This document shows positions 39,508 through 56,811 of a DNA stretch of 64,000 bases, in pieces (within the stretch, counting starts at the first letter, position 1; each line of letters starts with the position of its first letter). This stretch comes from Amycolatopsis deserti (GTDB lineage Bacteria > Actinomycetota > Actinomycetes > Mycobacteriales > Pseudonocardiaceae): the NCBI RefSeq assembly GCF_014653945.1, contig NZ_BNAU01000012.1:1-64000 (forward strand). Direction: 5' to 3'. Made by a program: the position numbers and the translations under genes. The notes under the pieces were generated by a model. The model made no database searches, was not told the origin of the DNA, and saw nothing but the letters and a program-made list of their open reading frames with translations.

Positions 39508-40902
39508 TCACCGCCCAGCCGGTCGGTCTGTCGGCCACGGGCGGACCTCCTCGACCAGCCTCGCCACCGCCAGCACCAGATCGTCCGAGTGCCGCGGCCC
39601 CACGATCTGCAACCCCACCGGCAACCCGTCCGCCGTCATCCCCGCCGGGACGCTGATCGCCGGTTGTTGGGTCATGTTGAACGGGTACGTGAACGGCGTC
39701 CAGTCCGGCCAGCCGCTCATCCCGCTCCCCGGGGGCACCTCGAAACCCGCCTCGAACGGCGCCACCGCGACCGTCGGGGTGATCAGCACGTCGAACCGGG
39801 TGTGGAACTCGCCCATGAGGATTCCCAGCGACGCCCGCTCCGCGTTGGCCGCCAGGTAGTCCGCCGCCGAGTACGTCTTCCCCTTCTCCCACACCCGCCG
39901 CAGGCCCGGGTCCACCTTCGCCTCCGAACCGGGCGGGAACGTGTCCAGCCACTGCGCGGCACCGGTCGACCAGAGCACGTCGAACGCCTCCCGCGGGTCG
40001 GCGAAACCCGGGTCCGTCTCCTCGACCCGCAACCCGGCCTCGTCCAGCGCCGCGACCGCCGACGTGACGATCCGGCGCACCTCCGGGTCCACCGAAGCCC
40101 ACCCCAACGTCGGAGAGAAGGCCGCGAACAACCCCCGCACGTCCCGCCGCACCGCCTCGCGGTACGCGCCCGCCGGCGGCTCCAGCGCGTTCGGGTCCCG
40201 GTGGTCCGGCAGCGCGAGCACGTCCAGCAACAACGCCACGTCCGACACCGACCGCGCCATCGGCCCGGCGTGCGACAACGCCCCGAACGGGCTCGCCGGC
40301 CACAACGGGATACGACCGTATGTCGGCTTCAGCCCGACGATCCCGCAGAACGACGCCGGGATCCGCACCGACCCGCCACCGTCGGTCCCCACCGACAGCT
40401 CGCCCATCCCGGCCGCCACCGCCGCCGCGCTACCCCCGCTCGACCCACCGGGCGTCTTCGCCGGGTTCCACGGGTTGCGGGTCACGCCGGTCAGCGGGTT
40501 GTCCGTCACGCCCTTCCACGCCAGCTCCGGCGTGGTCGTCTTGCCGAGCAGGACCAGCCCGTTCTCCCGCAGCCGCGCGGTGACCGGGCTGTCCACCTCC
40601 CACGGCTGATCGGGGTCGATGCAGGTCGATCCACGCAGCGTGGGCCAGCCCTGGGTCAGGAACATGTCCTTGATCGAGGTCGGCACCCCGTCCAGCGAGC
40701 CGATCGGGTTGCCCTCGCGCCACCGCACCTCCGACGCCTTGGCGCCCTCGCGGGCCACCTCGGGGTCGACCAGGCAGAACGCGTTGCACTCCCTGTCCCG
40801 CTCCTCGATCGAGCGCAGCGCGGCCTCGGTCGCCTCGACCGGGCTGATCTCGCCGGTCGAATACGCGGCGACCAGCTCACTCGCCGTCAACAGGGTGCTC
40901 AT
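39508..40902 (-). CDS. Amidase-signature-family amidohydrolase
   Basis: An amidase of 464 residues. The Ser-cisSer-Lys triad is visible: Lys78 in TSIKDM, Ser154 in PGGSSGGSAAAVAAG and Ser178 in GTDGGGSVRIPAS. Members hydrolyse carboxamides to acid plus ammonia. It follows the D-2-hydroxyacid dehydrogenase gene with a 9-bp gap and has its own GAGGAG ribosome site, so the two form an operon under the operator at 41935. The context suggests an aliphatic amide or amino-dicarboxylate amide as substrate (inference). The C-terminal 25 residues lie in C-rich repeat sequence. Confidence 0.88.
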   Translation of the reverse strand: MSTLLTASELVAAYSTGEISPVEATEAALRSIEERDRECNAFCLVDPEVAREGAKASEVRWREGNPIGSLDGVPTSIKDMFLTQGWPTLRGSTCIDPDQPWEVDSPVTARLRENGLVLLGKTTTPELAWKGVTDNPLTGVTRNPWNPAKTPGGSSGGSAAAVAAGMGELSVGTDGGGSVRIPASFCGIVGLKPTYGRIPLWPASPFGALSHAGPMARSVSDVALLLDVLALPDHRDPNALEPPAGAYREAVRRDVRGLFAAFSPTLGWASVDPEVRRIVTSAVAALDEAGLRVEETDPGFADPREAFDVLWSTGAAQWLDTFPPGSEAKVDPGLRRVWEKGKTYSAADYLAANAERASLGILMGEFHTRFDVLITPTVAVAPFEAGFEVPPGSGMSGWPDWTPFTYPFNMTQQPAISVPAGMTADGLPVGLQIVGPRHSDDLVLAVARLVEEVRPWPTDRPAGR

Positions 40903-40911
40903 CGGAACTCC

Positions 40912-41907
40912 TCACCGATCGGACGGCACGTACCCCAGCTGCTTGTCCACGACATTACGAAGCGGGGCGCCAGTCTGCCAGCGGTGGAAGTTGTCCGCGA
41001 ACACCTCGACCAGCGTGTCCCGCCACCCGATGAAGTCACCGGACATGTGCGGCGAGACCAGCACGTTCTTCATGGTCCACAAGGGACTGTCCATCGGCAG
41101 CGGCTCGGTGTCGAACACGTCCAGCGCGGCACCGGCGATGCCACCGGTCCGCAGCGCCTGCACCAGGTCACCGGTGACCACCAGCTCCCCCCGGCCGACG
41201 TTGACGAACCGCGCGGACGGCTTCATCGCCGCGAACGCGGCCGCGTCGAACAGGCCCTTCGTCTGCTCGGTCAGCGGCGCCACCGCGACGACGTAGTCAT
41301 AGGCCGGTAGGTGGTCCACCAGCCGGTCGGAGGCGTGCACCTCCCCGAAGTCGGGGTCGCCCGAGCGCGCCCGGCGGCCGGCGCCCGCGACGCGCATCCC
41401 GACCGCGCGCAGCATCCGCGCGATCGCCCGGCCGATCGGCCCGGTGCCCACGACCAGCACCGACCGCCCGGCGATGCGCTCGGTCTCCCGGTGCTGCCAG
41501 CGGCTCTCGCGCTGCAGGTCGAGTGATCCGTGCAGGTCCTTGGCGAAGGTGAGGACCACCCCCAGCACGTACTCCGCGATCGAATCGTCGAACACGCCCC
41601 GCGAGTTGGTGAGCACGACGTCGCTGTCCCGCATCCCCGGGAACATCACCGGGTCCACCCCGGCGCTGGCGATGTGCAGCCACCGCAGCCGGTTCACGGC
41701 GTGCCACGCATCAGGCACCGCACGGGACAGGAAGTCGTAGACAAAAAGGACATCGGCGTCCCGCAGCGCGTCGGCCAGACCGGCCTCGCCGGTGTAACGC
41801 ACCACGGCCGCCGATTCGATGGGCTGCATGGCGGGCGATTCGGTGAGGTCCCGGGCCTGGTCGTCACCGCACAGCACCGCCAGCACCGGTTTCTCCATGC
41901 CGATCAC
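40912..41907 (-). CDS. D-2-hydroxyacid dehydrogenase
   Basis: An NAD(P)-dependent D-isomer-specific 2-hydroxyacid dehydrogenase of about 331 residues. The cofactor motif is VLVVGTGPIGRAIARMLRAV. The catalytic Arg, Glu and His are in FVNVGRGELV, LDVFDTEPLP and VLVSPHMSGDF. It interconverts a 2-oxo acid and a D-hydroxy acid. It is first in an operon with the amidase. The promoter TTGACA-17-TACCGT on the minus strand is overlapped by the GntR-type operator. GTG at 41907 fits leaderless initiation seven bases after the -10; ATG at 41898 is the alternative. Confidence 0.87.
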   Translation of the reverse strand: MIGMEKPVLAVLCGDDQARDLTESPAMQPIESAAVVRYTGEAGLADALRDADVLFVYDFLSRAVPDAWHAVNRLRWLHIASAGVDPVMFPGMRDSDVVLTNSRGVFDDSIAEYVLGVVLTFAKDLHGSLDLQRESRWQHRETERIAGRSVLVVGTGPIGRAIARMLRAVGMRVAGAGRRARSGDPDFGEVHASDRLVDHLPAYDYVVAVAPLTEQTKGLFDAAAFAAMKPSARFVNVGRGELVVTGDLVQALRTGGIAGAALDVFDTEPLPMDSPLWTMKNVLVSPHMSGDFIGWRDTLVEVFADNFHRWQTGAPLRNVVDKQLGYVPSDR

Positions 41908-41909
41908 CG

Positions 41910-41948
41910 TTGACACGGTAGGAGCCGGTCGTATGATTGTCAACAATC
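41910..41948. promoter_or_regulatory. Divergent promoters overlapped by GntR operator (site 1)
   Basis: The palindrome GATTGTCAACAATC occupies 41935-41948. Leftward, TTGACA inside the palindrome and TACCGT (plus 41915-41920) are 17 bp apart. Rightward, TTGACA (41910-41915) and TATGAT (41932-41937) are 16 bp apart. The operator therefore covers the left -35 and the right -10. Confidence 0.8.
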
Positions 41949-41998
41949 CGAGGAGCCACCCCGGAGGCTTCCTTCAGAACGTCCCCGGAGGCTGAGCC

Positions 41999-42739
41999 TT
42001 GGATTTCGACTTCCCTGTCTTCGACGGGCCACTGGCGCAGCGAGGCATCGGAGTCATCGCACCCTTCGACCTGGCTCTCGAGCGCGAGCTGTGGCGCTGG
42101 ATCCCGATGGAGGTGTCCCTGCACCTCGCCCGCACCCCGTACGAGCCGGTGCCGGTGAGCATGGAGATGGCCCAGCTCGTCAGCAACCACCAGCACCTGG
42201 CCGCCGCCACCCGCGACGTCCTGCACGTCGAGCCGGAGGTGGTCGCCTACCTGTGCACGTCCGGCAGCTTCGTCAACGGCCTCGACTACGAGCGGTCGCT
42301 GTGCAAGGCGATCTGCGACGCCGGCGCCCCGGACGCGGTGACCACGTCGGGCGCGCTGGCCGAGGTGCTGCACCTGCTGGACGTCCACAAGGTCGCGGTG
42401 ATCACCCCGTACGACGCGGACCTGACGCAGAGCCTGCACGACTTCCTCGCCGAGCTGAACGTGGACACCGTCTCCAGCGACCACCTCGGCCTCGGCGGCG
42501 GGATCTGGAAGGTCAGCTACCGCACGATCGCCGAGCGGATCCTCGGCGCCGACCACCCCGACGCCGAGGCGATCTTCGTGAGCTGCACGAACCTCCCGAC
42601 GTACGACGTGATCGAACCGCTGGAGGTGGCCCTGGGCAAGCCCGTGCTGACCGCGAACCAGCTGACGATGTGGGCTTGCCTGAGACGCATGGAACTGCCG
42701 ATCGTCGGCCCGGGCAAGTGGCTGCGCGAAGTGTCCTGA
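41999..42739 (+). CDS. Asp/Glu racemase superfamily protein, maleate-isomerase-like (two Cys)
   Basis: This 246-residue protein belongs to the family that includes aspartate/glutamate racemases, maleate cis-trans isomerase and arylmalonate decarboxylase. Both catalytic cysteines are present: Cys86 in YLCTSGSFVNG and Cys196 in FVSCTNLPTYD. Isomerisation or racemisation of a dicarboxylate or amino acid is likely. TTG at 41999 is the start, since GGAGG lies seven bases upstream and the frame has no better codon. It is driven by the rightward promoter at 41910, under the GntR operator. The next gene is a paralogue. Confidence 0.85.
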   Translation: MDFDFPVFDGPLAQRGIGVIAPFDLALERELWRWIPMEVSLHLARTPYEPVPVSMEMAQLVSNHQHLAAATRDVLHVEPEVVAYLCTSGSFVNGLDYERSLCKAICDAGAPDAVTTSGALAEVLHLLDVHKVAVITPYDADLTQSLHDFLAELNVDTVSSDHLGLGGGIWKVSYRTIAERILGADHPDAEAIFVSCTNLPTYDVIEPLEVALGKPVLTANQLTMWACLRRMELPIVGPGKWLREVS

Positions 42740-42750
42740 AACCGCTAACG

Positions 42751-42767
42751 TAGGATTGTCGACAATC
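42751..42767 (+). promoter_or_regulatory. GntR operator (site 2) with -10
   Basis: GATTGTCGACAATC (42754-42767) is a perfect 14-bp palindrome. It overlaps TAGGAT (42751-42756), a -10 hexamer, and ends at the ribosome site (GGAGG) of the next gene. Confidence 0.8.
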
Positions 42768-42781
42768 TTGGAGGTTTGTGC

Positions 42782-43498
42782 ATGGCGACCGTCGGCTTCA
42801 TCTACCCGGACCACGCCGCGGAGGACGACTACCCGTTCGCCGAGCGGCTGCTCGGGTACCGGATCTCGCTGCCGGTCGAGCACATCTACGGCACCGACCT
42901 GCACGCCGTGCCCGAGCTGCTCGACCTGGGCAGCGAGAAGCGGCTGGCCGAGGGCGCCGCGCTGCTCGCCAAGCACGAGCCGGACGCGGTGGTGTGGGCC
43001 TGCACCAGCGGCAGCTTCGTCTACCGCTGGCAGGGGGCGCACGAGCAGGTGGAGAAGCTGTCGGCGGCCGCGGGCAAGCCGGCGTCGAGCACGTCCTTCG
43101 CGTTCGTGCGGGCCGCGCAGGCGCTCGGGCTGAATCGGGTGTCGGTGGCCGCGAGCTACCCGGACGACGTGGCGAAGCTGTTCGTCGAGTTCCTCGGCGC
43201 GGGCGGGATCGAGGTCGTCGCGATGTCGAGCGAGGACATCGACACGGCCGCCGAGGTGGGCCGGCTGAGCCCCGAGGCCGTCGTCGAACTGGCGGTGGCG
43301 CATGATCACCCCGCGGCGGACGCCGTCCTGGTCCCGGACACGGCGATGCGCACGCTCGGTGTGCTGGGCGCGATCGAGGAACGGCTGGGCAAGCCGGTGC
43401 TCACCGCGAACCAGGTGACGATCTGGGAAGGGCTCCGGCTGACCGGCCAGGTGCCCCGGTGCGAGCAGCTGGGCAGACTGTTCGCAGAAGGCAGGTGA
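42782..43498 (+). CDS. Asp/Glu racemase superfamily paralogue lacking the second Cys
   Basis: This 238-residue paralogue keeps Cys74 in WACTSGSFVYR, but the position of the second catalytic cysteine is Asp186 (VLVPDTAMRTLG). Two-base racemisation as in the neighbour is therefore unlikely; a one-cysteine lyase or isomerase reaction, or a partner role, is possible. GGAGG is seven bases before the ATG at 42782. It has its own operator (site 2) and is followed after three bases by the GntR gene, so the regulator is co-transcribed with it. Confidence 0.83.
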   Translation: MATVGFIYPDHAAEDDYPFAERLLGYRISLPVEHIYGTDLHAVPELLDLGSEKRLAEGAALLAKHEPDAVVWACTSGSFVYRWQGAHEQVEKLSAAAGKPASSTSFAFVRAAQALGLNRVSVAASYPDDVAKLFVEFLGAGGIEVVAMSSEDIDTAAEVGRLSPEAVVELAVAHDHPAADAVLVPDTAMRTLGVLGAIEERLGKPVLTANQVTIWEGLRLTGQVPRCEQLGRLFAEGR

Positions 43499-43501
43499 AC
43501 G

Positions 43502-44167
43502 ATGGCCCTGACCGACATCGAACCGGTGAGCCGGGAGTCGACCGCGGCGATCATCGCGCGGCAGCTCCGCGAGGCGATCATGAACGGCACGTTCGCGCCG
43601 GGCACGCAGCTCGGGGAGACCGAGCTGGCCGGCCGGTTCCAGGTGTCCCGCGGCCCGCTGCGCGAGGCGATGCAGCGGCTGGTGTCGGAGGGCCTGCTGC
43701 GCAGCGAGCGGCACCGCGGGCTGTTCGTGATCGACCTCGAACCGGAGGACGTGCACGACATCTACTCGGCGCGGTTCGCGATCGAGCGGGCGGCGCTGAT
43801 CCGGGTGCTGCGGCACGGTGACCGCGAGGAGCTGGCCGTCCGGCTGATGGACGCCGTCGAGGACATGGCGTCGGCCACCGACGGGGACGAGGTGTCGGCG
43901 GCGGACGTCCGGTTCCACGAGGAGCTGGTGGGGGCTTCGGGGTCCAAGCGGCTCGGCCGGATGGCGCGGACGCTGCTGATCGAGACGCGCATGTGCCTGT
44001 CCGCGCTGCACCGCACCTACGCGACGAACGAGGAGCGGGTGACCGAGCACAAGCGCATCGCGGAGGCGATCGGCGCCGGCGACGAGGAGCTGGCGGTGTC
44101 GCTGCTGGAGGCGCACATGGAGGACGCGGTGCGCCGCCTCGCCCCGGGGACCAGCCTGCACGCCTGA
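43502..44167 (+). CDS. GntR/FCD-family transcriptional regulator
   Basis: This 221-residue repressor has an N-terminal GntR winged helix (IIARQLREAIMNGTFAPGTQ, ELAGRFQVSRGPLREAMQRL, GLFVIDLEPEDV) and an all-helical FCD effector domain (about 80-210). The FCD domain contains ARFAIERAALIRVL, VRFHEELVGASGS and EHKRIAEAIGAGDEELAVSL, with the Asp/His residues that commonly bind a metal and a carboxylate. FadR/FCD regulators typically bind ATTGTnnACAAT-like sites, exactly the palindrome found at 41935, 42754 and 52563. It is probably the repressor of all three, with a pathway carboxylate as inducer (inference). Confidence 0.9.
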   Translation: MALTDIEPVSRESTAAIIARQLREAIMNGTFAPGTQLGETELAGRFQVSRGPLREAMQRLVSEGLLRSERHRGLFVIDLEPEDVHDIYSARFAIERAALIRVLRHGDREELAVRLMDAVEDMASATDGDEVSAADVRFHEELVGASGSKRLGRMARTLLIETRMCLSALHRTYATNEERVTEHKRIAEAIGAGDEELAVSLLEAHMEDAVRRLAPGTSLHA

Positions 44168-44244
44168 TCCGCTGTAACGGAAGGTTGCGGGTCCGCGATC
44201 TTGGGTTCGTCCGCGCGCGACGCGGGGGGAACCGGGAGGACCGC

Positions 44245-44904
44245 GTGCGCGGATGGATCTTGCTCGCCCTGGCGCTGGTGAGCGGCTGTTCCGCGGCGGA
44301 GCCGGTGGTCGCGCCGTCGTCGAGCGCATCGCGGCCGAGCGCGCCCGCCGTGCCCAAGGTCAACGAGCACGAGCGGCTCGCCGCGACCATGCTCACCGAC
44401 AGCGAGGGGACCGCGCTCGGGTTCACCTACCAGAGCGAGCCCACGCCGTTCATCGAGTCGCAGAACCAGAAGTTCGCGCTCGTCGCGGCGTGCCCAGGGC
44501 GGCTGCCGAGCGACTCACGAATCGTGCGGGCCGAGCAGGCCACCTGGAGGAACGACGACTACAACCTGGAGGAACTCACCGCGCAGTATTCCGGGATCCC
44601 GGCCGCAGACGCGGTGGGCGAGGTCGCGCGGACGAAAGGGTGCCGGGCGAACGTCGGCTCGGGTGGGCGGATCGACGAGATCTCCTTGCCGTCGGTGCCC
44701 GGCGCCGACGCGGCGAAGGCGTTCTGCACCATCAGCGAATACGGCACCGACCGGTGCGTCGTCGTCGTGGCGCGTGGGGAGTTCGCCGCGGCGGGCGAGC
44801 TGAGGTACTACGGCATTGACGGTCCCGCGAACCGCGAAGCCACCACCGCTCTCCTGCGCCGGGTCGCCATCGCCCTCGGGCAGGGCCTGGGACATGTGGC
44901 GTGA
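44245..44904 (+). CDS. Putative lipoprotein A of a tandem pair
   Basis: This 219-residue secreted lipoprotein has a short signal ending in the lipobox LVSGCS, a Ser/Pro-rich linker and a globular domain with four cysteines (VAACPGRLPSDS, KGCRANVG, AFCTISEYG, DRCVVVVARG), probably forming disulfides. I do not recognise a named family; it resembles actinobacterial sensor-domain-type lipoproteins. GTG at 44245 follows GGGAGGA. Its stop overlaps the start of a paralogous lipoprotein, which shares the PFIESQN motif. Confidence 0.72.
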   Translation: MRGWILLALALVSGCSAAEPVVAPSSSASRPSAPAVPKVNEHERLAATMLTDSEGTALGFTYQSEPTPFIESQNQKFALVAACPGRLPSDSRIVRAEQATWRNDDYNLEELTAQYSGIPAADAVGEVARTKGCRANVGSGGRIDEISLPSVPGADAAKAFCTISEYGTDRCVVVVARGEFAAAGELRYYGIDGPANREATTALLRRVAIALGQGLGHVA

Positions 44905-45566
44905 GACGCCTCGTGGCGCTGCTCGCCGGGGTGGTCCTTCTCACCGGGTGCAGTACCGAAATCGCCGGCACCGCGGGTATGCCGGGGCCGGCGGTCGGGC
45001 CGGTCGTGTCCAAGTACGACCTCCAGCAGCGGCTCGTCGGTGCCATGCTCACCGAGCCGGAACTCACGCAGGCGGGTCTGCACTGGCTCCAGGAGCCCCT
45101 GCCGTTCATCGAGTCGCAGAACTCGCGCTACAAGTTCATCTACGACTGCCCGAGCCACTTGCCCTCGGACGTCGCGATCCAGGCGGCGGAGTACGCCACC
45201 GCGACTTCGGGGAACTTCGATCACGGCACCTACCTGTACGTGATGACCGCGTCCTACCGCGGCCCCAGCGGCCCCACCGCGGTCGCGCAAGGCCGCGCGC
45301 TCAGCGGCTGCATCGGGCTGCCCGGGGCCACCAAAGTCACGCTTCCGCCGCTGAACGGCGCCGATGAGCAGGCAGCGTTCTGCGGGGACGACGTGGGCTT
45401 CTCCGGCTTCCACCGGGTCTGCGTGCTGCTACTGGGCAGGCAGAACGCGGCGACGGTCGCCGCCTACAGCGTCAGCGACAAGAACCGGGCCATCCCGCCC
45501 ACCCAGATGGAAACCGACCTGCCGCGCGTCGCGCAGTTGCTCGCCACCGCGCTCACCCGCGCCTGA
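44901..45566 (+). CDS. Putative lipoprotein B of a tandem pair
   Basis: A 221-residue lipoprotein with lipobox LLTGCS, paralogous to the preceding gene (shared LHWLQEPLPFIESQN and C..HLPSD blocks and the same cysteine pattern: YDCPSHLPSD, SGCIGLPG, AFCGDDVG, RVCVLLLGRQ). GTG at 44901 overlaps the previous stop (GTGA), so the pair is translationally coupled. The function is unknown. It ends two bases from the end of the convergent P-type ATPase gene. Confidence 0.72.
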   Translation: MRRLVALLAGVVLLTGCSTEIAGTAGMPGPAVGPVVSKYDLQQRLVGAMLTEPELTQAGLHWLQEPLPFIESQNSRYKFIYDCPSHLPSDVAIQAAEYATATSGNFDHGTYLYVMTASYRGPSGPTAVAQGRALSGCIGLPGATKVTLPPLNGADEQAAFCGDDVGFSGFHRVCVLLLGRQNAATVAAYSVSDKNRAIPPTQMETDLPRVAQLLATALTRA

Positions 45567-45567
45567 C

Positions 45568-48500
45568 TCACTCCTCGATCGTCCGGCCGACCACCGCTCC
45601 CAGTGCCGTCGCCGCGCCCGCGCTGCCCAGCGCCATCCCCCAGCCGATCGGGCCGAGCGGGGTGCAGCCGAAGAACTGGCTCACCCCGGGCGTCTGGATG
45701 ACCGCCGCGAGCAGCGCCACCGAACCGAGCGACGTCGCCAGCACCGAACGGTTCCAGCCGCCCGTCAGCAGGGTCTGCCCGAGCTGCGTGCCGACCAGCC
45801 CGGCCAGCGCGACCGTGCTCGCCCGGCGGCCGCGGCCCGTTGCGCGCGCCAGCATCCACGCGGTCGTCGCGCCGAGGGTCGTCACTCCCGCCCGCACGCC
45901 GATGTCCTTCTGCAAGCGCTTCCCGAGCGAACTCTCCGGGCCCTCCCGCAACAGGTCGGCGCCGTCCTCGGGCCGCCGCAACGCGATCGCCAGCGCCGGC
46001 GCCAGGTCGGTCAGCAGGTTGACCAGCAGGAACTGCCGCGCCCCCAACGGGGACCGGCCGGTCAGGGTCGCGCCGAGCACGCTGAACCCGATCTCGCCCA
46101 GGTTCCCGCCGAGCAGGATCGCCAGCGCCTCCCGCACCGACGCCCACATCGCCCGGCCCTCGACCAGCGCCGCGATGATGGTTTCCAGCCGGTCGTCGGT
46201 CACCACCAGGTCGGCCGCGGCCCGCGCCGCCGGGGCGCCGTGCCCGCCGAGGGCGATGCCGACGTCGGCGAGCCGGATCGCGGGCGCGTCGTTCGCGCCG
46301 TCGCCGGTCATCGCGACGGTGTGGCCGTGCTTCTGGTACGCCTTGATGATCCGCACCTTCTGCGCCGGGCTGCACCGCGCCACCACGTCCACGGTTTCCA
46401 AAGTGGACGCCAGCTGCTCGTCGTCCATCGCGTCCAGCTCGGCGCCGGTCACCACGTGCAGGTCGGCGCCGTCCTCGGTGACCTTGTCCGCGATCGCCTC
46501 GCCGGTGTCCGGGTGGTCGCCGGTGATCATCACGATCTGCACGCCCGCGGCACGCAGGTCCGCCGCCGCGGCCGCCGCGCTCCCCCGCACCGGGTCGGCG
46601 ATCGCCACGAAACCCTTGAACCGCAGGCCCTCGACCGCATCCTCGTCTAGGCTCGCACTGTCCGGAGTGGACTCGGCGACCGCGAGCACCCGCTGCCCCG
46701 CCTTGGCGAGCTTCTTCATCCGCCCGGCGAGCTTCTTCCGCTTTCCCTCGTCCAGGTCGCAGCGCGGGAGCACCGACTCCGGCGCGCCCTTGACGCTCAG
46801 CACCAGCCCGCCGTCGCCCCGCATCAGTGAGGCGTGGTAACCGCGCGACGGCTCGAACGGCACCGCGTCGACCAGCTCCCAGCCGTTCGTGTGCACGGAA
46901 ACCCGTTGCGCGCCTTCGACGATCGCCCGGTCCGTCGCGTGTGGCAGGTCGGACGGGTCGTCGGCGTGCGGCGTCGCCCGCAAGGCGGTCAGCAGCACCG
47001 ACTCGGTCGTCTCGTCGAGGTCCTCGATCTTGCGGCGCTGGCGGCCGTCGTCGACCTCGTGGACGGTCAGCGTGCCCTCGGTCAGCGTCCCGGTCTTGTC
47101 GAAGCACAGCACGTCGACGCGGCCCAGCGCTTCGATGCTGCGCGGGTTGCGGACCAGCGCGTTGTGCTCGGCGAGCCGGCGCGCGGCGGCCAGCTGCGCG
47201 GCGCTGACCAGGAACGGCAGCCCCTCCGGCACCGACGCGACGGCCAGGTTCACCGCCGCCGACAGGCTTTGCCGCAGCGGCACCCGCCGCAGCAGCCCGG
47301 CGCCGGCGACCGCGACCGCCGACCCGATCGCCAGCGGCATCGACTTCGACGTCAGCTCGGCCAGGCGGGTCTCCACACCGGTGACCGGCGCGTTCTCGCG
47401 CGCCATCGCCATGCTGCGGCCGGCCTCGGTGTCCGCGCCGGTCGCGACCACGACGCCGACGGCCTCGCCGGCCGCGATCGTCGTGCCCTCGTAGAGCATC
47501 GACGCGCGCTCGGCGACATCCCCGGCGATCACCGGCGCCGGGTCCTTGGACACCGGCAGCGACTCGCCGGTCAGCGACGACTCGTCCGCCTCGACACCGT
47601 CGGCTTCGAGCAGCCGGCAGTCGGCGGGCACGACGTCGCCGGAAGTCAGCTTGATGACGTCGCCGGGCACCAGGTCGTCGGCGCTGACCACGCGCTCCCG
47701 GCCGCCGCGGATCACGGTCGTGCTGATCGCGGACCGGCTCAGCAGCTCGGCCAGCTGCTTCTCGGTGTGGACCTGCTGGACGCTGCCGACCAGCGCGGAC
47801 ACGCCGGTGATCCCGGCGACGAGCGCGGCGTCCACCGGCGACCCGACCGACGCGGACAGCGCGGCACCGCCGATCAGGACCGGGGTGAGCGGGTTGGACA
47901 GCTCGTTGATGAACGCCTGCATCAGGCTGGTCCGGCCGCCGCTGCCGGTGCCGCGGGTCCGGGCGCGCTTCTGGGCGTCGTCGTCGCTCAGGCCGTCCGG
48001 GTCGGTGTCGAGCCGGTCCAGGACCACGTCGACCGGCATCAGGTGCCAGGGCGCGGCGTCCCCGGCGAGGCTCGTGTCGCGGTCGGCGAGCCGCTTCGCG
48101 CGGCGGTGCGCGTTGGTCAGGGCGACGGCCGCGCCCAGGTTCACCGCCCGCATCGCCCGGTTGGCCGGGCTGCGGCGTCCGGGCTGCAGCGCGGCGACCG
48201 CGCCCACGCCCGTCGCGCCCTGGGAGAGCCAGATGCTGTCGCGGTTGACCTCGCGGGCGGCGGCGATCGCGTCGACGACCAGCGCCGCCACGCCGATGTC
48301 CTCGCCGATCAGCAGGTGCGCGCCCCACGGCGGCGGGTCGCCCGGGCGCTGGGTGCCGATGCCGCAGTCGGCGGCGCCGAGCGCGCGGCGGTCGTCGGAC
48401 ACCAGCATCACCACGTGGTCCTCGCCCTGCAGCTCGCGCACGGTGGAGACGAGACGGTCGCCGCCGGGCATCAGCCGGTCGGCCTCGAACGCGGCGTGGC

Positions 48501-49869
48501 CGCCGTTGGCGCTGATCACCTCGATGTTCGAGCGGCGGGCGGCGGCGATCACCGCGGCCACGCCCGGCGGCACCTGCCTGCCGAGACCGATCACGGCCGC
48601 GAGCTGCTGGTCGCGCACCAGGCCGAGGACCGCGGCCGCGCCACGCTTCTCCAGCTGCTCGCGCTCGTGGGCGCCCTGGTCGACGCCCAGCTCGTCAAGC
48701 GGGCCGAGGCGCCAGCCGTCGTCGTCGTGGACCTTGCCCGGGGTGTGCGCGTCGAACAGCTGCCAGGCGCGTTCGACCAGCTCGCGGGGGTCGCCGTCGC
48801 CGAGCGGGACGAGGTCGTTGAGGACCATCCGGCCGGTGTCGAAGGCCTGCTCGTCGAGGACCAGGGTGTCGATGGCGTCCAGGTGGCGCAGCACGCCGCG
48901 GTCCATGACCAGGACGCCCTCGGTGGCCAGCACGCGGCCAAGGCGGGCGCCGAACGCGGTGCGCCCGGCCTCGGCGGCCTTGGGGAGCGCGGCCAGGCCG
49001 ATGCCCATCGCCCGGCGCGGGCGCGCGAAGGGGATCGACACGGCGGCCGCGGCGGCGCCGAGGTTGAGGATGCGCTGCTCGTACTGTTCGACCGGGCCGT
49101 CCGGGATCTCCCGCGGGCGCTCAACGACGACCGGCCCGGCGGCGGCGTCCTCCGGGCCGTGGATCAGGCGGTTCTCGGCCTGGCACCACAGCCGTTCGTG
49201 CGCGCGGGCCTCGCGCCACTGCTCGGCGCGCTGGATGATGTCGACGATCGTGCCCTCGCCACCGGAGGCCAGGCCCTGTGCGAACGCGCCGAACGCCGAC
49301 GTCGCGGTGTCGGCCTTCTCGCGGCTGCCGGCCCGCTCGGCGGCGATCTCGCGCAGGCGCGGGTGCAGGTCGACGACGCTGGGCAGCGCGGCGATCTCGG
49401 TCGGGATCGGGGCCCACGGCGCGAGGCGGGTGATGAGGGACAGGCCAAGGCCGAGGGTGTCGGCGGCCAGGGTCGGCAGGAGGCGGGTTCCGCGCAGGCC
49501 GTCGGCCGGGTGGTGGAGTTCGTCCTCTTTGATCTCTTCGCCGACGCCGTCGGGAGCGCCCTCGGCCTCCTCGACGACGCGGATCAGCTCGGCGCTGTCC
49601 GGGGCGGGGTCGTGGACGCCGATGATCACCCGGGAGGAGGGCGCGTTGACCCGAGCCCACGCGACGCCCGGGTGACGTTGCACGGCCTGCTCGATGCGCT
49701 GCGCGACGGCTTCACCGCCCGGCCCGTGCACCCCGTGGGCCTCGATGTGCAGCCGCCCCGGACAGGACCACACCCGGCGACGGGGCCTGCTCAGCGGGGA
49801 CAACACCACCCCGGCGAGCCCCTTCACCGCCGACACCGGACCGGGCACCCGGACACCCAGCAACTCCAT
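45568..49869 (-). CDS. Giant CtpI-like P-type ATPase with degenerate N-terminal ATPase half
   Basis: A 1433-residue P-type ATPase. The C-terminal half is a complete P-type pump: PGDVIKLTSGDVVPADC, SLTGESLPV, VPEGLP, the phosphorylation site FDKTGTLTEGT (Asp near 923) and MTGDGANDAPAI, plus a final membrane domain. The N-terminal half contains a heavy-metal-associated-like domain (about 39-86) and a decayed copy of the pump core. At about 335-345 LDEQAFDTG replaces DKTGTLTEG, and near 480 LVSDDRRALGAADCGIG replaces the hinge. The ion is unknown. ATG at 49869 has GGGAG six bases upstream. Confidence 0.88.
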   Translation of the reverse strand: MELLGVRVPGPVSAVKGLAGVVLSPLSRPRRRVWSCPGRLHIEAHGVHGPGGEAVAQRIEQAVQRHPGVAWARVNAPSSRVIIGVHDPAPDSAELIRVVEEAEGAPDGVGEEIKEDELHHPADGLRGTRLLPTLAADTLGLGLSLITRLAPWAPIPTEIAALPSVVDLHPRLREIAAERAGSREKADTATSAFGAFAQGLASGGEGTIVDIIQRAEQWREARAHERLWCQAENRLIHGPEDAAAGPVVVERPREIPDGPVEQYEQRILNLGAAAAAVSIPFARPRRAMGIGLAALPKAAEAGRTAFGARLGRVLATEGVLVMDRGVLRHLDAIDTLVLDEQAFDTGRMVLNDLVPLGDGDPRELVERAWQLFDAHTPGKVHDDDGWRLGPLDELGVDQGAHEREQLEKRGAAAVLGLVRDQQLAAVIGLGRQVPPGVAAVIAAARRSNIEVISANGGHAAFEADRLMPGGDRLVSTVRELQGEDHVVMLVSDDRRALGAADCGIGTQRPGDPPPWGAHLLIGEDIGVAALVVDAIAAAREVNRDSIWLSQGATGVGAVAALQPGRRSPANRAMRAVNLGAAVALTNAHRRAKRLADRDTSLAGDAAPWHLMPVDVVLDRLDTDPDGLSDDDAQKRARTRGTGSGGRTSLMQAFINELSNPLTPVLIGGAALSASVGSPVDAALVAGITGVSALVGSVQQVHTEKQLAELLSRSAISTTVIRGGRERVVSADDLVPGDVIKLTSGDVVPADCRLLEADGVEADESSLTGESLPVSKDPAPVIAGDVAERASMLYEGTTIAAGEAVGVVVATGADTEAGRSMAMARENAPVTGVETRLAELTSKSMPLAIGSAVAVAGAGLLRRVPLRQSLSAAVNLAVASVPEGLPFLVSAAQLAAARRLAEHNALVRNPRSIEALGRVDVLCFDKTGTLTEGTLTVHEVDDGRQRRKIEDLDETTESVLLTALRATPHADDPSDLPHATDRAIVEGAQRVSVHTNGWELVDAVPFEPSRGYHASLMRGDGGLVLSVKGAPESVLPRCDLDEGKRKKLAGRMKKLAKAGQRVLAVAESTPDSASLDEDAVEGLRFKGFVAIADPVRGSAAAAAADLRAAGVQIVMITGDHPDTGEAIADKVTEDGADLHVVTGAELDAMDDEQLASTLETVDVVARCSPAQKVRIIKAYQKHGHTVAMTGDGANDAPAIRLADVGIALGGHGAPAARAAADLVVTDDRLETIIAALVEGRAMWASVREALAILLGGNLGEIGFSVLGATLTGRSPLGARQFLLVNLLTDLAPALAIALRRPEDGADLLREGPESSLGKRLQKDIGVRAGVTTLGATTAWMLARATGRGRRASTVALAGLVGTQLGQTLLTGGWNRSVLATSLGSVALLAAVIQTPGVSQFFGCTPLGPIGWGMALGSAGAATALGAVVGRTIEE

Positions 49870-49996
49870 GAACCACTCCCACACCTCGACTTCTCCGGTG
49901 CCTGGGTTGCCCATTCCGGGTGAAGGTATGCGTGTGCCCGCAGGTCGGCCGGAGTTTCCGTCCCGCGGTCGCACCGGGGTGCGACCGCGGGCGGGG

Positions 49997-51055
49997 TCAG
50001 CCGAGAGCCGCGGTGACGGCGGCGCCCAGCTCGGTGGTCGTGGACTTGCCGCCGAGATCGGGTGTGGCCACCTCGCCGGCGGCGAGCACCTGCTCGACCG
50101 CCGTGTTGACGGCCGCGGCGGCCTTCTTCTCCCCGAGGTGTTCCAGCATCATCGCGCCCGCCAGGATCTGCGCCACCGGGTTCGCGATGCCCTGGCCGGC
50201 GATGTCCGGCGCACTGCCGTGCACCGCCTCGAACATCGACGGGAACTCGCCCTCCGGGTTGACGTTGCCGGACGGCGCCATGCCCAGTCCGCCCGTCACC
50301 GCCGCCGCCAGGTCGCTCAGGATGTCGCCGAACAGGTTCGACCCGACGACCACGTCCAGCCGGTCCGGGTGCTGCACCATGCGCGCCGCCAGCGCGTCGA
50401 TGTGCGTCTGTTCACTGTGGACGTCCGGGTACTCGGCGGCGATCTCGGCGAAGATCTCGTCCCAGAACGGCATCGTGTGGATGATCCCGTTCGACTTGGT
50501 CGCCGAGCACACCCGCCCGCTGCGGGTCCGGGCCAGCTCGAACGCGAACCGGATGATCCGCGAAACGCCGACGCGCGTGAAGATCGACTCCTGCACGACG
50601 AACTCCCCCGGCTGCCCCGGGTTGTGCCGCCCGCCGATCTGCGAGTACTCGCCCTCGGTGTTCTCCCGGACGATCACCATCTCCAGCTCGTCGGCCTCGC
50701 GCCCGGCGAGCACCGACGTCGTCCCGGGCAGCAGCCGCACCGGCCGCAGGTTCACGTACTGCGCGAACGCCCGCCGGATGGGGATCAGCAACCCCCACAG
50801 CGACACGTGGTCCGGCACCCCGGGAAACCCGACCGCGCCGAGCAGGATCCCGTCGAACGGCCGCAGCTGCTCGATGCCGTCCTCCGGCATCATCCGGCCG
50901 GTCTTGGCGTACCGCTCGCAGCTCCAGTCGAACTCCGTCCACTGCAGACGGAACCCGTGCAGCTCGCCCGCGCGGTCCAGGACCTGGCGCGCCTCGGCGG
51001 TGACGTCGACCCCGATGCCGTCACCGGGGATGCTGGCGATCCGGTAGTCGTTCAC
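49997..51055 (-). CDS. Tartrate/D-malate dehydrogenase family (isopropylmalate-DH-like)
   Basis: A 352-residue NAD-dependent beta-decarboxylating dehydrogenase: IASIPGDGIGVDVTAEA, VNLRPVRLLPG, VIVRENTEGEYSQIGG, KSNGIIHTMPFWDEIF, DVVVGSNLFGDILSDLAAAV and EAVHGSAPDIAGQGIANPVA. ENTEGEY with SQIGGR is characteristic of the tartrate/D-malate dehydrogenase branch rather than LeuB. It would oxidise D-malate or a related 2-hydroxy-diacid. GTG at 51055 overlaps the stop codon of the aldehyde dehydrogenase gene (GTGA), so the two form one operon under operator site 3. Confidence 0.87.
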   Translation of the reverse strand: MNDYRIASIPGDGIGVDVTAEARQVLDRAGELHGFRLQWTEFDWSCERYAKTGRMMPEDGIEQLRPFDGILLGAVGFPGVPDHVSLWGLLIPIRRAFAQYVNLRPVRLLPGTTSVLAGREADELEMVIVRENTEGEYSQIGGRHNPGQPGEFVVQESIFTRVGVSRIIRFAFELARTRSGRVCSATKSNGIIHTMPFWDEIFAEIAAEYPDVHSEQTHIDALAARMVQHPDRLDVVVGSNLFGDILSDLAAAVTGGLGMAPSGNVNPEGEFPSMFEAVHGSAPDIAGQGIANPVAQILAGAMMLEHLGEKKAAAAVNTAVEQVLAAGEVATPDLGGKSTTTELGAAVTAALG

Positions 51056-52515
51056 AGGCTCACCGCGATGTACTTGGTCTCCAGGAACTCGTCGATGCCG
51101 ACGGTGCCGCCCTCGCGGCCGAGCCCGGACTGCTTGACCCCGCCGAACGGCGCCGCCGGGTTGGACACGATGCCCTGGTTGAGCCCGATCATGCCGGCCT
51201 CCAGCGCCTCCGACACGCGCAGCGCCCGCTTCAGGTCGTTGGTGTAGACGTAGCTGACCAGGCCGTACTCGGTGTCGTTCGCGGCGGCGACGGCCTCGTC
51301 CTCATCGTCGAACACACTGATCGGCGCGACCGGGCCGAAGATCTCCTCGCTCGCCATCCGCGCGTCCCGCGGCACTTCGGTGAGCACCGTGGCCTGGTAG
51401 AAGTTCCCCGGACCGTCCACAGTGGCCCCACCGGTGAGCACCTTCGCGCCCCGGGAGGTGGCGTCGGCGACCAGCTCGGTCACCTTGGCCACCGCGTCGG
51501 CGTCGATCAGCGGCCCGACCACCACGCCGGGTTCGGTGCCGCGGCCCAGCGGCAGCGCGGACATCCGCTCGGTCAGCCGGCGGGCGAACTCGTCGGCGAC
51601 CCCGCGCTGCACGTAGAACCGGTTGGCCGCGGTGCACGCCTCGCCGATGTTGCGCATCTTGGCCTGCATCGCGCCCTCGACCGCCGCGTCCAGGTCGGCG
51701 TCGTCGAAGACCAGGAAGGGCGCGTTGCCGCCCAGCTCCATGGACGTGCGCAGCACCTTGTCCGCGCACTGTTCGAGCAGCTTGCGGCCGACCGCGGTGG
51801 ACCCGGTGAACGACAGCTTGCGCGCCCGGCCGTCCTTGATCATCGGCTCCATCACGCCGCCGGGGTCGCTGGTGGTGACGACGTTGAGCACGCCCGCGGG
51901 CAGCCCGGCCTCGGTCAGGATCGCGGCCAGCGCGAGCATCGACAGCGGCGTCTGCTCGGCCGGCTTGATCACCATCGTGCAGCCGGCCGCGATCGCCGGA
52001 CCGATCTTGCGGCCGCCCATCGCCATCGGGAAGTTCCACGGCGTGATCAGCAGGCACGGCCCGACCGGCTGCTTGGTGACCAGGAACCGGCCGGCGCCGT
52101 TGGGCGCGACCTGGTAGCCGCCGTCGATGCGCACGGCCTCCTCGGAGAACCAGCGGAAGAACTCCGCGGCGTAGGCGACCTCGCCCTTCGCCTCGGCCAG
52201 CGGCTTGCCCATCTCCAGGGTCATCAACAACGCCAGCTCGTCGACCCGCGAGTTGAGCAGTTCGTAGGCGCGACGCAGGATCTCGCTGCGCTCACGCGGG
52301 GCCGTCTTCGCCCAGTCGGCCTGGGCGGCGACCGCGGCGTCGAGGGCGGCCTTCCCGTCCTCGGGCGAGGCGTCGGCGACCTCGCAGAGGACCCGGCCGG
52401 TCGCGGGATCCTCGACGGCGAAGGTCCGTCCGCTGCTCGACGGGACCCACTTCCCGCCGATGAACAGCTCCTTGCCGACGGCGTCCACGACACCCGATTC
52501 GGTCAGCTCGCCCAT
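51052..52515 (-). CDS. NAD(P)-dependent (succinate-semialdehyde-type) aldehyde dehydrogenase
   Basis: A 487-residue aldehyde dehydrogenase. The catalytic Glu260 is in MELGGNAPF and the nucleophile Cys294 in IGEACTAANRF; ITPWNFPMAMGGRKIGPAIA and FTGSTAVGRKLL are cofactor motifs. The overall pattern is closest to succinate-semialdehyde dehydrogenase (GabD-type). It would oxidise a semialdehyde, perhaps one produced by the divergent aminotransferase. AGGAGG precedes the ATG. The promoter TTGTAG-17-TAGCAT on the minus strand has the GntR operator between its hexamers. Confidence 0.9.
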   Translation of the reverse strand: MGELTESGVVDAVGKELFIGGKWVPSSSGRTFAVEDPATGRVLCEVADASPEDGKAALDAAVAAQADWAKTAPRERSEILRRAYELLNSRVDELALLMTLEMGKPLAEAKGEVAYAAEFFRWFSEEAVRIDGGYQVAPNGAGRFLVTKQPVGPCLLITPWNFPMAMGGRKIGPAIAAGCTMVIKPAEQTPLSMLALAAILTEAGLPAGVLNVVTTSDPGGVMEPMIKDGRARKLSFTGSTAVGRKLLEQCADKVLRTSMELGGNAPFLVFDDADLDAAVEGAMQAKMRNIGEACTAANRFYVQRGVADEFARRLTERMSALPLGRGTEPGVVVGPLIDADAVAKVTELVADATSRGAKVLTGGATVDGPGNFYQATVLTEVPRDARMASEEIFGPVAPISVFDDEDEAVAAANDTEYGLVSYVYTNDLKRALRVSEALEAGMIGLNQGIVSNPAAPFGGVKQSGLGREGGTVGIDEFLETKYIAVSL

Positions 52516-52552
52516 CAGTCCTCCTGATCAACCTTGCGCCTGTCCACGGGCC

Positions 52553-52581
52553 ATGCTAGACAGATTGTCAACAATCTACAA
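52553..52581. promoter_or_regulatory. GntR operator (site 3) with leftward promoter
   Basis: AGATTGTCAACAATCT (52562-52577) has 7-bp arms around CA and is identical at its 14-bp core to site 1. On the minus strand TTGTAG (plus 52576-52581) and TAGCAT (plus 52553-52558) are 17 bp apart and enclose it. The rightward promoter is not clear. Confidence 0.8.
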
Positions 52582-52609
52582 GCTCACTCCGGTTAGGAGT
52601 TCCGCCGTC

Positions 52610-53869
52610 ATGGCCCAGCTCTCCCCCCTGCTCAAGCAGGCCACTCCGGTCGTCGTCGAGCACGGCGAAGGCGCCTACCTCTACGACACCGACGGCAACC
52701 GCCACCTCGACTTCACCGCCGGCATCGGCGTGACCAGCACCGGCCACTGCCACCCGAAGGTGGTCAAGGCGGCGCAGGAGCAGGTCGGCAAGCTGATCCA
52801 CGGCCAGTACACGACCGTGATGCACCAGCCGCTGCTCAAGCTGGTCGAGCGGCTCGGCGACGTGCTGCCCACCGGGCTGGACTCGCTGTTCTTCGCCAAC
52901 TCGGGCAGCGAGGCCGTCGAGGCCGCGCTGCGGTTGTCGCGGCAGGCCACGAAGCGGCCGAACGTCATCGTCTTCCAGGGCGGGTTCCACGGCCGCACGG
53001 TCGCCGCCGCCTCCATGACCACCTCCGGCACCCGGTTCAGCGCGGGCATCTCGCCGCTGATGGGCGGCGTGCACGTCGCCCCCTTCCCCTACGCCTACCA
53101 CTACGGCTGGGACGAGCAGACCGCGACGAAGTTCGCGCTGCGCGAACTGGACTACCTCTTCCAGACGATCAGCGCCCCGCACGAGACGGCCGCGTTCTTC
53201 ATCGAGCCGATGCTCGGCGAGGGCGGGTACGTGCCGGCGAACCCGGAGTTCATGGCCGGGCTGCGCGAGCGCGCCGACCAGCACGGGATTCTGCTGGTGA
53301 TCGACGAGATCCAGACCGGGTTCGGGCGGACCGGCCGGTTCTGGGGCCACGACCACTTCGGCGTGCGGCCGGACGTGGTGCTGATCGCGAAGGGCCTGGC
53401 GAGCGGTTTCCCGCTGTCCGGCATCGCGGCGTCGCAGGAGCTGATGGCCAAGGCGTTCCCCGGTTCGCAGGGCGGCACCTACGGCGGCAACGCGGTGTCG
53501 TGCGCGGCGGCGCTGGCCACCCTCGACGTGATCGAGGAGGAGAACCTGGTCGAAAACGCGGCGGCGCGCGGCAAGCAGCTGCTCGAGGGCGCGCGGCTGA
53601 TCGGCGACAAGACACCGGAGATCGGCGAGGTGCGCGGGCTGGGCCTGCTGGTCGGGTCGGAGTTCACCAAGGCCGACGGCACCCCGGACACCGCGACCGC
53701 GGCGGCGGCGCAGCAGGAGGCCGCGCGGCGCGGGCTGCTGCTGCTCACCTGCGGCGCGTACTCCAACGTCGTGCGGATGATCCCGCCGCTCGTGGTCACC
53801 GCCGAGCAGATCGACGACGCGCTCGCGATCTGGGCCGAGACCGTCGCCGCCGTCACCGGTTCCAAGTAG
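52610..53869 (+). CDS. Class III (omega) PLP-dependent aminotransferase
   Basis: A 419-residue fold-type I aminotransferase. The PLP lysine is Lys261 in LIAKGLASGFPLS, with Asp232/Glu233 in LLVIDEIQTGFGRTG. FANSGSEAVEAALRL and GFHGRTVAAASMTTSG are phosphate- and ring-binding motifs. The nearest types act on GABA, ornithine or other omega-amino acids. With the divergent semialdehyde dehydrogenase it could form an amino-acid to semialdehyde to acid step. TTAGGAG lies about ten bases before the ATG. It is under operator site 3 and followed by the DUF3830 gene. Confidence 0.9.
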   Translation: MAQLSPLLKQATPVVVEHGEGAYLYDTDGNRHLDFTAGIGVTSTGHCHPKVVKAAQEQVGKLIHGQYTTVMHQPLLKLVERLGDVLPTGLDSLFFANSGSEAVEAALRLSRQATKRPNVIVFQGGFHGRTVAAASMTTSGTRFSAGISPLMGGVHVAPFPYAYHYGWDEQTATKFALRELDYLFQTISAPHETAAFFIEPMLGEGGYVPANPEFMAGLRERADQHGILLVIDEIQTGFGRTGRFWGHDHFGVRPDVVLIAKGLASGFPLSGIAASQELMAKAFPGSQGGTYGGNAVSCAAALATLDVIEEENLVENAAARGKQLLEGARLIGDKTPEIGEVRGLGLLVGSEFTKADGTPDTATAAAAQQEAARRGLLLLTCGAYSNVVRMIPPLVVTAEQIDDALAIWAETVAAVTGSK

Positions 53870-53881
53870 GGAGAAGGCACG

Positions 53882-54382
53882 TTGGCCCGCTACATCACCA
53901 TTTCGCTCGACAAGCGCGGCGTGTCCTGCCGCGCCGTGCTGCTGGACGCGGAGGCGCCGCGGACCTGCCAGGCGGTGTGGAACGCGCTGCCGCAGAGCGG
54001 TTCGGCCTACCACGCGAAGTACGCCCGCAACGAGGTCTACACGCTGGTGCCGCCGTTCGCCGACCCGAAGCCGGGCCGGGAGAACCCGACGGTGACGCCC
54101 ATTCCCGGGGATGTCGTCTATTTCGGATTCGAGGCGTGGGAAATCGGCAATCCCGCGTACGGGTACGAGGACAGCAGCGAGGCGCACAGCGATCAGGGCG
54201 CGACCGATCTGGCCATCTTCTACGGCCGGAACAACCTGCTCATCAACGGCGACGCCGGCTGGGTTCCGGGCAACGTGTTCGCCACGATCGTGGAAGGGCT
54301 GCCGGAAATGGCGGCGGCCGCCCAGGACCTGTGGCTGCGCGGCGTCGAGGGGGAAACGCTCTCGTTCGCTCGTGCCGAGTGA
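53882..54382 (+). CDS. DUF3830 family protein
   Basis: This 166-residue protein fits DUF3830, a cyclophilin-like-fold family found beside catabolic genes: MARYITISLDKRGVSCRAVL, EAPRTCQAVWNALPQSGSAY, GDVVYFGFEAWEIG, FYGRNNLLINGDAGWVPGNV and FATIVEGLPEMAAAAQDLWL. Its biochemical role is not established. TTG at 53882 is the start: GGGAGAAGG lies just upstream and the family N-terminus aligns there. It is 12 bp after the aminotransferase stop, so the two are one operon. Confidence 0.85.
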   Translation: MARYITISLDKRGVSCRAVLLDAEAPRTCQAVWNALPQSGSAYHAKYARNEVYTLVPPFADPKPGRENPTVTPIPGDVVYFGFEAWEIGNPAYGYEDSSEAHSDQGATDLAIFYGRNNLLINGDAGWVPGNVFATIVEGLPEMAAAAQDLWLRGVEGETLSFARAE

Positions 54383-55294: not shown

Positions 55295-55301
55295 GTCGAC
55301 G

Positions 55302-56803: not shown

Positions 56804-56811
56804 GGAGTGAG

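Follow-up and report, generated by a model that had tools for sequence, protein, structure and literature searches.

A GntR/FCD operator joins two separated gene clusters of Amycolatopsis deserti in a predicted regulon, probably for the breakdown of ectoine-type solutes

Genes and operators of the two clusters

The DNA analysed here (the window) is the first 64,000 nucleotides of contig NZ_BNAU01000012.1 of Amycolatopsis deserti (assembly GCF_014653945.1). Two gene clusters in it, at 39508-44167 and 49997-54382, share the 14-bp palindrome GATTGTCNACAATC and are well supported, by comparison with related genomes, as one regulon. This had been claimed in an earlier reading of the letters of the window (the original prediction), and the gene functions named there held at the family level when scored with Pfam and NCBIfam profiles.

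The first cluster begins on the reverse strand with an amidase-signature hydrolase of the PRK06169 type (AMI; 39508-40902), which scored 766.5 bits against the equivalog NF004815 (cut-off 506) and matched PF01425, and a D-2-hydroxyacid dehydrogenase (HDH; 40912-41898), assigned by PF02826 and PF00389, with its start placed by geometry. Two paralogues of the EutA/maleate isomerase/arylmalonate decarboxylase type follow on the forward strand, RAC1 (41999-42739) and RAC2 (42776-43498). Both matched PF17645, and the best NCBIfam match of both was EutA of ectoine utilization (TIGR02990), at 99.5 and 115 bits far under the cut-off of 318; this was the first hint of a substrate. Relatives of RAC2 in the PDB, by sequence, were arylmalonate decarboxylase and maleate cis-trans isomerase entries (3ixl, 2xed and 4fq5), and RAC1 belongs to the same Pfam family. 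The arylmalonate decarboxylase equivalog NF052327 (cut-off 225) was not reached by RAC1 or RAC2 (71.0 and 92.8 bits). Both catalytic-type cysteines, C86 and C196, are kept by RAC1 in 34/34 sequences. RAC2 orthologues keep only the first, C76, and carry an aspartate (D188) at the second position in 39/39 sequences, which is the reverse of arylmalonate decarboxylase, where the second cysteine is kept. The cluster ends with the gene for the regulator (43502-44167, forward strand), in which an N-terminal GntR winged helix (PF00392, 67.1 bits) and a C-terminal FCD domain (PF07729, 75.7 bits) were both confirmed above the gathering cut-offs.

In the second cluster, a tartrate/D-malate-type beta-decarboxylating dehydrogenase (TTC; 49997-51055; TIGR02089, 527.8 bits, cut-off 470.4) and a succinate-semialdehyde-dehydrogenase-like protein (ALDH; 51052-52515; TIGR01780, 585.8 bits, below the cut-off of 646.35) are encoded on the reverse strand. 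On the forward strand are a class III aminotransferase (AMT; 52610-53869; PF00202), whose best PDB relatives are 4-aminobutyrate (GABA) aminotransferases, and a DUF3830 protein (53882-54382; PF12903), a homologue of crystal structure 3KOP (3kop_A, E = 5.4e-71). A model of the DUF3830 protein (predicted local distance difference test, pLDDT, 87) has a cyclophilin-like fold. In a re-ranking of Foldseek's first 1000 chains its nearest neighbours were the bacterial Pictet-Spenglerases McbB and KslB, well above other cyclophilin-like folds. The likeness to McbB (3x27) and KslB (9nss) is one of fold only, as DUF3830 is 16 to 20% identical, half as long and stands alone. No 5-oxoprolinase/KipI-type cyclophilin-like protein was among the best 50 of the 1000 chains, an absence that excludes nothing.

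An exact-match scan confirmed the palindrome at the three positions first noted, 41935, 42754 and 52563. Operator 1 (GATTGTCAACAATC, 41935-41948) lies in the divergent HDH/RAC1 promoter and is kept in relatives, operator 2 (GATTGTCGACAATC, 42754-42767) lies upstream of RAC2, and operator 3 (GATTGTCAACAATC, 52563-52576) lies in the divergent ALDH/AMT promoter. The program-made open reading frames (ORFs) of HDH (to 41946) and AMT (from 52460) overrun the operators, and later ATG starts at 41898 and 52610 were taken as likely. Counted upstream from the likely starts, operator 1 is 36 bp from HDH and 50 bp from RAC1, operator 3 is 47 bp from ALDH and 33 bp from AMT, and operator 2 is 8 bp from the first TTG of RAC2.

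The palindrome was not equally frequent elsewhere in the genome (7,743,013 bases, 24 contigs): the exact 14-mer was found at the three cluster places and at no others. One mismatch was carried by three places (C2:684520, C8:177227 and C8:272923, numbered by contig), and when up to two mismatches were allowed the forward strand gave 25 matches and the reverse strand 23, a reversed control pattern giving 8 and 4. The exact 12-bp core ATTGTNNACAAT occurred at six places and its reversed control at none. In the window itself, 14 matches with up to three mismatches were counted, against a mean of 5.4 and a largest value of 13 in 100 shuffles. In A. deserti the full 14-mer is specific to the cluster and the 12-bp core is not.

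A sigma-70-like promoter directed toward RAC1 (TTGACA-16-TATGAT, 41910-41937, forward strand, 11/12 matches) overlaps operator 1 with its -10 element. Near-perfect promoters of this kind numbered 2 in 16.5 kb, with 0.3 expected from shuffles. When 126 places from related loci were aligned (overlapping sets, duplicates kept), the RAC1 promoter-operator sequence predominated, and the six TTGACA positions agreed in 114-123 of the 126. Because operator 1 runs into the -10 element, the geometry suits a repressor, and the protein encoded at 43502-44167 is presumed to act as one at the operators. The opposite strand of operator 1 also contains TTGACA, as read from the sequence, which may be a promoter element for HDH.

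Conservation of the regulon in related genomes

A search for RAC2 in 249 genomes of the order gave 41 positives, with a match in 25/42 genomes of A. deserti's own family, and a search for RAC1 in 345 class genomes gave 45. Chosen for RAC1 or RAC2, 57 loci were taken from 38 of the 41 order genomes and, out of 36 class genomes that the order set had not covered, from 19. The genome of A. deserti, the two weakest genomes (G020, G181), two paralogous stretches (L073, L074) and A. deserti's own paralogue (L115) were left out, and some of the 57 loci are cut by the ends of their stretches. RAC2 was present in 57, HDH in 56, the amidase in 53, RAC1 in 52, DUF3830 in 49, the regulator in 49, AMT in 38, ALDH in 35 and TTC in 19 of these loci, and all nine genes in 13.

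Co-occurrence in related genomes, proposed with the original prediction as a check, was marked. Regulator gene and core site were found together in 49/57 loci and both were missing from the other 8, that is, the site was present in 49/49 loci with the regulator gene and in 0/8 without it. The 57 loci held 118 core sites in 1.11 Mb, where 0.056 were expected from first-order composition, and 117 of these had a query-gene match at most 400 bp downstream. The remaining site, in L114, stands directly before a sugar-transporter-family gene of the major facilitator superfamily (MFS). Among the best 80 of 581 named loci (from Amycolatopsis, Prauserella, Saccharomonospora, Nocardia, Rhodococcus, Mycolicibacter, Janibacter and others), 79 had the regulator gene with the site, one (L234) had the regulator without an exact site, and 158/158 sites were upstream of a cluster gene. 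The claim that the sites always stand in promoters of this gene set was upheld in the window, and the same genes are preceded by the core across families.

Both halves of the gene set were in one stretch of at most 20 kb in 34/57 loci, and ALDH or AMT was at most 200 bp from the regulator gene in 9. A compact block, AMI-HDH-[site]-DUF3830-RAC1-[site]-RAC2-GntR-ALDH-[site]-AMT, was found in L057, L060 and L065, without TTC. The distance between the halves in the window is not essential, since they form one block in many relatives. When 13 regulator-bearing genomes were searched whole, 42/55 core sites were inside the fetched cluster stretches; in three genomes of genus g85 the count was 0/5. 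The joining of both halves in one regulon is strongly supported by the genome-unique 14-mer, by the conservation of the core before the same genes and by the way in which the site tracks the regulator gene.

Links to ectoine transport and metabolism

Ectoine and hydroxyectoine are major compatible solutes under salt stress and, once released, sources of carbon and nitrogen. An assignment to ectoine from the EutA similarity alone was set aside as too weak, the scores being below cut-off, and was taken up because of the links to ehu, EutD-like, EctD and ect genes described below.

The one-mismatch site at C8:272923 lies 91 bp before the ehuB ATG of A. deserti. In this operon, EhuB scored 248.5 bits (equivalog cut-off 190.9) and EhuA 348.9 bits (cut-off 345.4), and ehuC and ehuD were recognised by tblastn similarity only (48% and 50%). 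The sequence after the ehuB site, TTGACAATCCTACGA, resembles TTGACAATCATACGA on the opposite strand at HDH. A predicted ectoine transporter operon on contig C8, outside the window, seems to belong to the regulon as well. A site upstream of ehuB was found in three genomes (A. deserti, G129 and G250), two of which also have a site at a EutD-like gene. The G129 cluster encloses ehuABCD together with genes for a class I/II aminotransferase, an M20 ArgE/DapE-type deacylase and a protein that resembles EutD (388.8 bits, cut-off 613). Of its sites, one separates ehuB from RAC2, and another precedes the start of the EutD similarity by 15 bp. The G250 genome has eight core sites, all at two loci about 85 kb apart. 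These loci hold genes for Ehu, RAC1, RAC2, the regulator, AMI and ALDH, a sugar-transporter-family MFS gene, HDH, a EutD-like gene (416.5 bits), AMT and DUF3830. Among genomes bearing RAC1 or RAC2, these two were the only ones with EutD matches below the cut-off.

The association with ehu was closest in genus g85. Here ehuABCD, DUF3830, AMI, HDH, RAC1 and RAC2 were together in 8/8 fetched loci, all of them without the GntR gene and without the site, and in one (L099) EhuA, B, C and D were all above their equivalog cut-offs. In all 18 g85 genomes with RAC1, ehuB was within about 8 kb by coordinates. A further 11 had ehuB and no RAC1 match, with a RAC2-like gene (37-54%) adjoining in 10 and HDH in 7. 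Over the class, EhuB was found in 37/45 genomes with RAC1 and in 18/300 without it (Fisher p about 2.5e-28, relatedness ignored; the overlap was compiled by hand and assumes the same 345 genomes in both searches). Among the cluster genomes of the order, 25/35 had an EhuB match, 24 of them over the cut-off.

Genes of ectoine synthesis and hydroxylation adjoin the cluster in other genera. In Rhodococcus opacus the regulator gene is followed by one for an ectoine hydroxylase (EctD), assigned by equivalog (419.8 bits, cut-off 336.5), and R. koreensis and a Rhodococcus metagenome-assembled genome have an EctD-like neighbour of the regulator by similarity. In three Mycolicibacter/Mycobacterium loci ectB-ectC-ectD run directly into DUF3830 on one strand. 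The same arrangement is present in G148, G226 and G195, where Pfam names an ectoine synthase and a PhyH-type hydroxylase in L056 and L055. A. deserti encodes an EctD of its own, over the cut-off, at C4:351182. A ProP-like transporter (family F23) was near the block in four genomes, and the one transporter scored reached 422.1 bits (ProP cut-off 544). ALDH is 45% identical to Ssd of the Sinorhizobium meliloti ectoine cluster, and AMT is 31% identical to Atf.

As a side observation, Mycolicibacter sp. MYC340 (L226) has two partial copies of AMI-HDH-RAC1-RAC2, each with its own site, which flank ectB-ectC-ectD-DUF3830.

Proposed pathway and alternatives

The comparative evidence makes it likely, short of firm, that the cluster breaks down ectoine-type solutes (5-hydroxyectoine probably, ectoine possibly) under a GntR/FCD repressor that also controls import. 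The original prediction had left the substrate of its single pathway unnamed; the single pathway is supported, and ectoine/5-hydroxyectoine is now suggested by the gene links. With no inducer present, the repressor would occupy GATTGTCNACAATC and keep the RAC2 promoter, the distant ehuBCDA operon and both divergent promoter pairs shut, until binding of a pathway intermediate to its FCD domain opened them. Ehu, with its ligand assigned by homology, would import the ectoine-type ring, which AMI and/or DUF3830 would open and deacetylate. By analogy with EutA, RAC1/RAC2 and HDH might handle hydroxylated or mirror-image forms. To judge by their enzyme classes, AMT and ALDH could carry out two steps like those that end the known ectoine route, from a diaminobutyrate-type product to an aspartate-type acid, and TTC might, as a guess, finish the hydroxylated product.

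EutD opens and EutE deacetylates the ectoine ring in other bacteria. A variant route is proposed here because neither was found in A. deserti. In its specific form, the proposal is that Actinomycetota carry a widespread EutD/EutE-independent route for 5-hydroxyectoine, and for ectoine after hydroxylation by EctD. DUF3830 and the amidase would replace the hydrolase and deacetylase, the two- and one-cysteine EutA-like pair would act on the chiral centre, and a GntR/FCD repressor would run import and catabolism. We put this forward tentatively, as somewhat more apt to fail than to hold in all its parts, and the fold match of DUF3830 raised our estimate of it slightly.

Several observations weigh against ectoine as the substrate. 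EutD gave no match at E<=1e-50 in A. deserti, and none over the cut-off in 345 class genomes or in 30 further cluster genomes. EutE was over the cut-off in 0/55 genomes (best in A. deserti 93 bits, cut-off 402.7). With EutD and EutE not found, no enzyme is assigned to ring opening and deacetylation, and the Pictet-Spenglerase-like fold of the DUF3830 model by itself shows no function. RAC1 and RAC2, well under the EutA cut-off, are relatives of EutA by family only. AMT and ALDH belong to the enzyme classes of Atf and Ssd, compared by identity alone, with AMT at a low identity and ALDH of a generic succinate-semialdehyde dehydrogenase (SSADH) type. S. meliloti EutB and EutC had no match in the 57 cluster loci, where they were sought only beside the cluster; in two Janibacter loci a EutB-like gene (37 and 38%) was present some 6 to 7 kb away from the regulator. 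Among eight window proteins compared, none matched S. meliloti EutB, EutC, DoeA or DoeB. The operator was at ehu operons in only 2 of the 46 loci L116-L161 (G129 and the A. deserti C8 copy). It was missing from the second A. deserti ehu copy (C7) and from all 14 f31 loci, in 12 of which ehu adjoins an aminotransferase 31 to 34% like AMT. Three other f31 genomes have ehu beside ectB/ectC by similarity, a biosynthetic setting, and on two annotated Rhodococcus plasmids ehu is near BCCT and NhaA genes, which looks osmoprotective. Since most ehu operons are without the site and some are in such settings, the presence of Ehu alone is no proof of catabolism. The EutD-like site of G129 lies inside the longest ORF, so its role in a promoter depends on the true start. 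All support for the ectoine assignment is comparative.

These points leave room for a regulon that is real and serves another small ring amide, an amino-dicarboxylate or a related nitrogen compound carried by an Ehu-type transporter, the ect and ehu neighbourhoods being partly due to chance or to a shared role in nitrogen-rich solutes. The missing EutD and EutE, the EutA scores, the GABA aminotransferase relatives of AMT and the assignment of the EhuB ligand by homology only would all fit, and the tartrate-type dehydrogenase has no step in the reviewed ectoine route. We consider such a substrate unlikely, given the ehu links in g85, G250 and G129, the EutD-like proteins of G129 and G250, ectD in Rhodococcus, ectBCD in Mycolicibacter and the site at A. 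deserti ehuB. A GABA-type pathway from AMT and ALDH alone is possible for that pair and leaves the other genes unexplained; it was set aside. The cluster might instead remove the cell's own ectoine or hydroxyectoine in stationary phase or when osmolarity falls, for which the EctD of A. deserti and the same-strand ectB-ectC-ectD and DUF3830 genes of Mycolicibacter/Mycobacterium speak. This is rendered rather improbable by the site at ehuB in three genomes and by the adjacency of import genes and enzymes in g85, both of which favour an external solute.

The palindrome might also be a generic FCD site used by several FCD regulators, in which case the three sites would define no single regulon. 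The 12-bp core is indeed not exclusive to the cluster. It stands before PIG-L and RraA-like genes at C2:684520 (L004, L283) of A. deserti, and related core-bearing loci in G138 and G125 hold RraA-like, PrpF, glyoxalase-family and GCV_T-like genes. Two core places in G125 adjoin FCD regulator genes of their own, whose products are 20 and 26% identical to the cluster regulator over the whole protein. Perhaps loci of the C2 type form a second catabolic regulon with an almost identical operator. PrpR of Pseudomonas aeruginosa, an FCD regulator of the 2-methylcitrate cycle, has a similar predicted 12-bp palindrome, ATTGTCGACAAT, and in passages of PMC9765439 an electrophoretic mobility shift assay is described in which it bound the region upstream of prpR that holds the motif; its genes and pathway differ from those here. 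Because the core is common to other loci, a different regulator could act at the ehuB site, which also counts against the ectoine assignment. A site without a single regulon is nevertheless very improbable, as regulator gene and site covary (49 loci with both, 8 with neither) and as all core sites of the genome are inside cluster stretches in G250, G129, G156, G174, G219 and G414.

Relation to known ectoine clusters

The EutR/EnuR-controlled ehuABCD-eutABCDE-asnC-ssd-atf cluster of S. meliloti and Ruegeria pomeroyi has in common with the present one a protein of the EutA-type family, a class III aminotransferase and an SSADH-type dehydrogenase. The linkage to ehu is alike, here as ehuB with the cluster operator in three genomes. 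The regulator here is of the GntR/FCD type, whereas there it is a MocR protein of the EnuR type, and the amidase, the D-2-hydroxyacid dehydrogenase, the second, one-cysteine paralogue, DUF3830 and often the tartrate-type dehydrogenase are additions. Compared with arylmalonate decarboxylase and maleate cis-trans isomerase, RAC1 has two cysteines and RAC2 the first only, both under the decarboxylase equivalog cut-off.

Passages of a 2018 review confine ectoine consumers to Proteobacteria and use EutD as a probe (PMC5924519), and a 2016 regulon study, in part of its text, places EutR in Proteobacteria (PMC5320631). A 2026 paper, as its main text has it, used EutD and EutB as probes and proposed putative ectoine clusters on this basis in Bacillota and Actinomycetota (PMC13188858). 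Those clusters likewise concern ectoine catabolism in Gram-positive bacteria, and some are without EutE and have an amidohydrolase gene and EhuABCD; the present cluster, in contrast, is mostly without EutD. The terms 'GntR', 'DUF' and 'amidase' are absent from the main text of that paper, figures and supplements being outside this check. Among the papers listed in a literature search of titles and abstract openings, in open-licence PMC articles only, none described the present cluster, and no paper on DUF3830 turned up among such articles.

If the proposed route holds, many actinomycetes eat ectoines by a route that searches with EutD miss. DUF3830 and two EutA-like families would gain a role, DUF3830 as a new family of ring-opening enzymes, and the chemistry of hydroxyectoine breakdown would have a new genetic system with a clean, testable operator.

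Genes between and beside the clusters

The two halves are separated by two lipoprotein-like ORFs and a P-type ATPase (45568-49974), none of which was in the gene list of the original prediction. The ATPase has 1468 residues, with a long N-terminal extension and P-type domains from near residue 640. It also sits between the halves in G138, G156, G125, G144, G174 and G227 and not in other relatives. It was set aside as a regulon member, as it has no operator of its own and is between the halves in some relatives only. It could be co-transcribed with ALDH-TTC, because its start is 22 bp after TTC on the same strand. The two short tandem ORFs at 44245-45566, downstream of the regulator, resemble secreted lipoproteins at their starts when read by eye, with GCSAAE and GCSTEI close to the N-terminus, and no Pfam family matched the second.

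After DUF3830, a pair of genes at 55430-58365 encodes a flavin adenine dinucleotide (FAD)-linked oxidase (GlcD-like) and a thiamine pyrophosphate enzyme (PRK07586, 805.5 bits, cut-off 363), possibly a 2-hydroxyacid/2-oxoacid module. The pair was set aside as a regulon member: it has no operator, and each gene was matched in 12/80 named loci, whose flanks end at 10 kb. Between DUF3830 and this pair, the stretch at 54904-55296 (reverse strand), read by eye, looks like a gene of the carboxymuconolactone-decarboxylase type.

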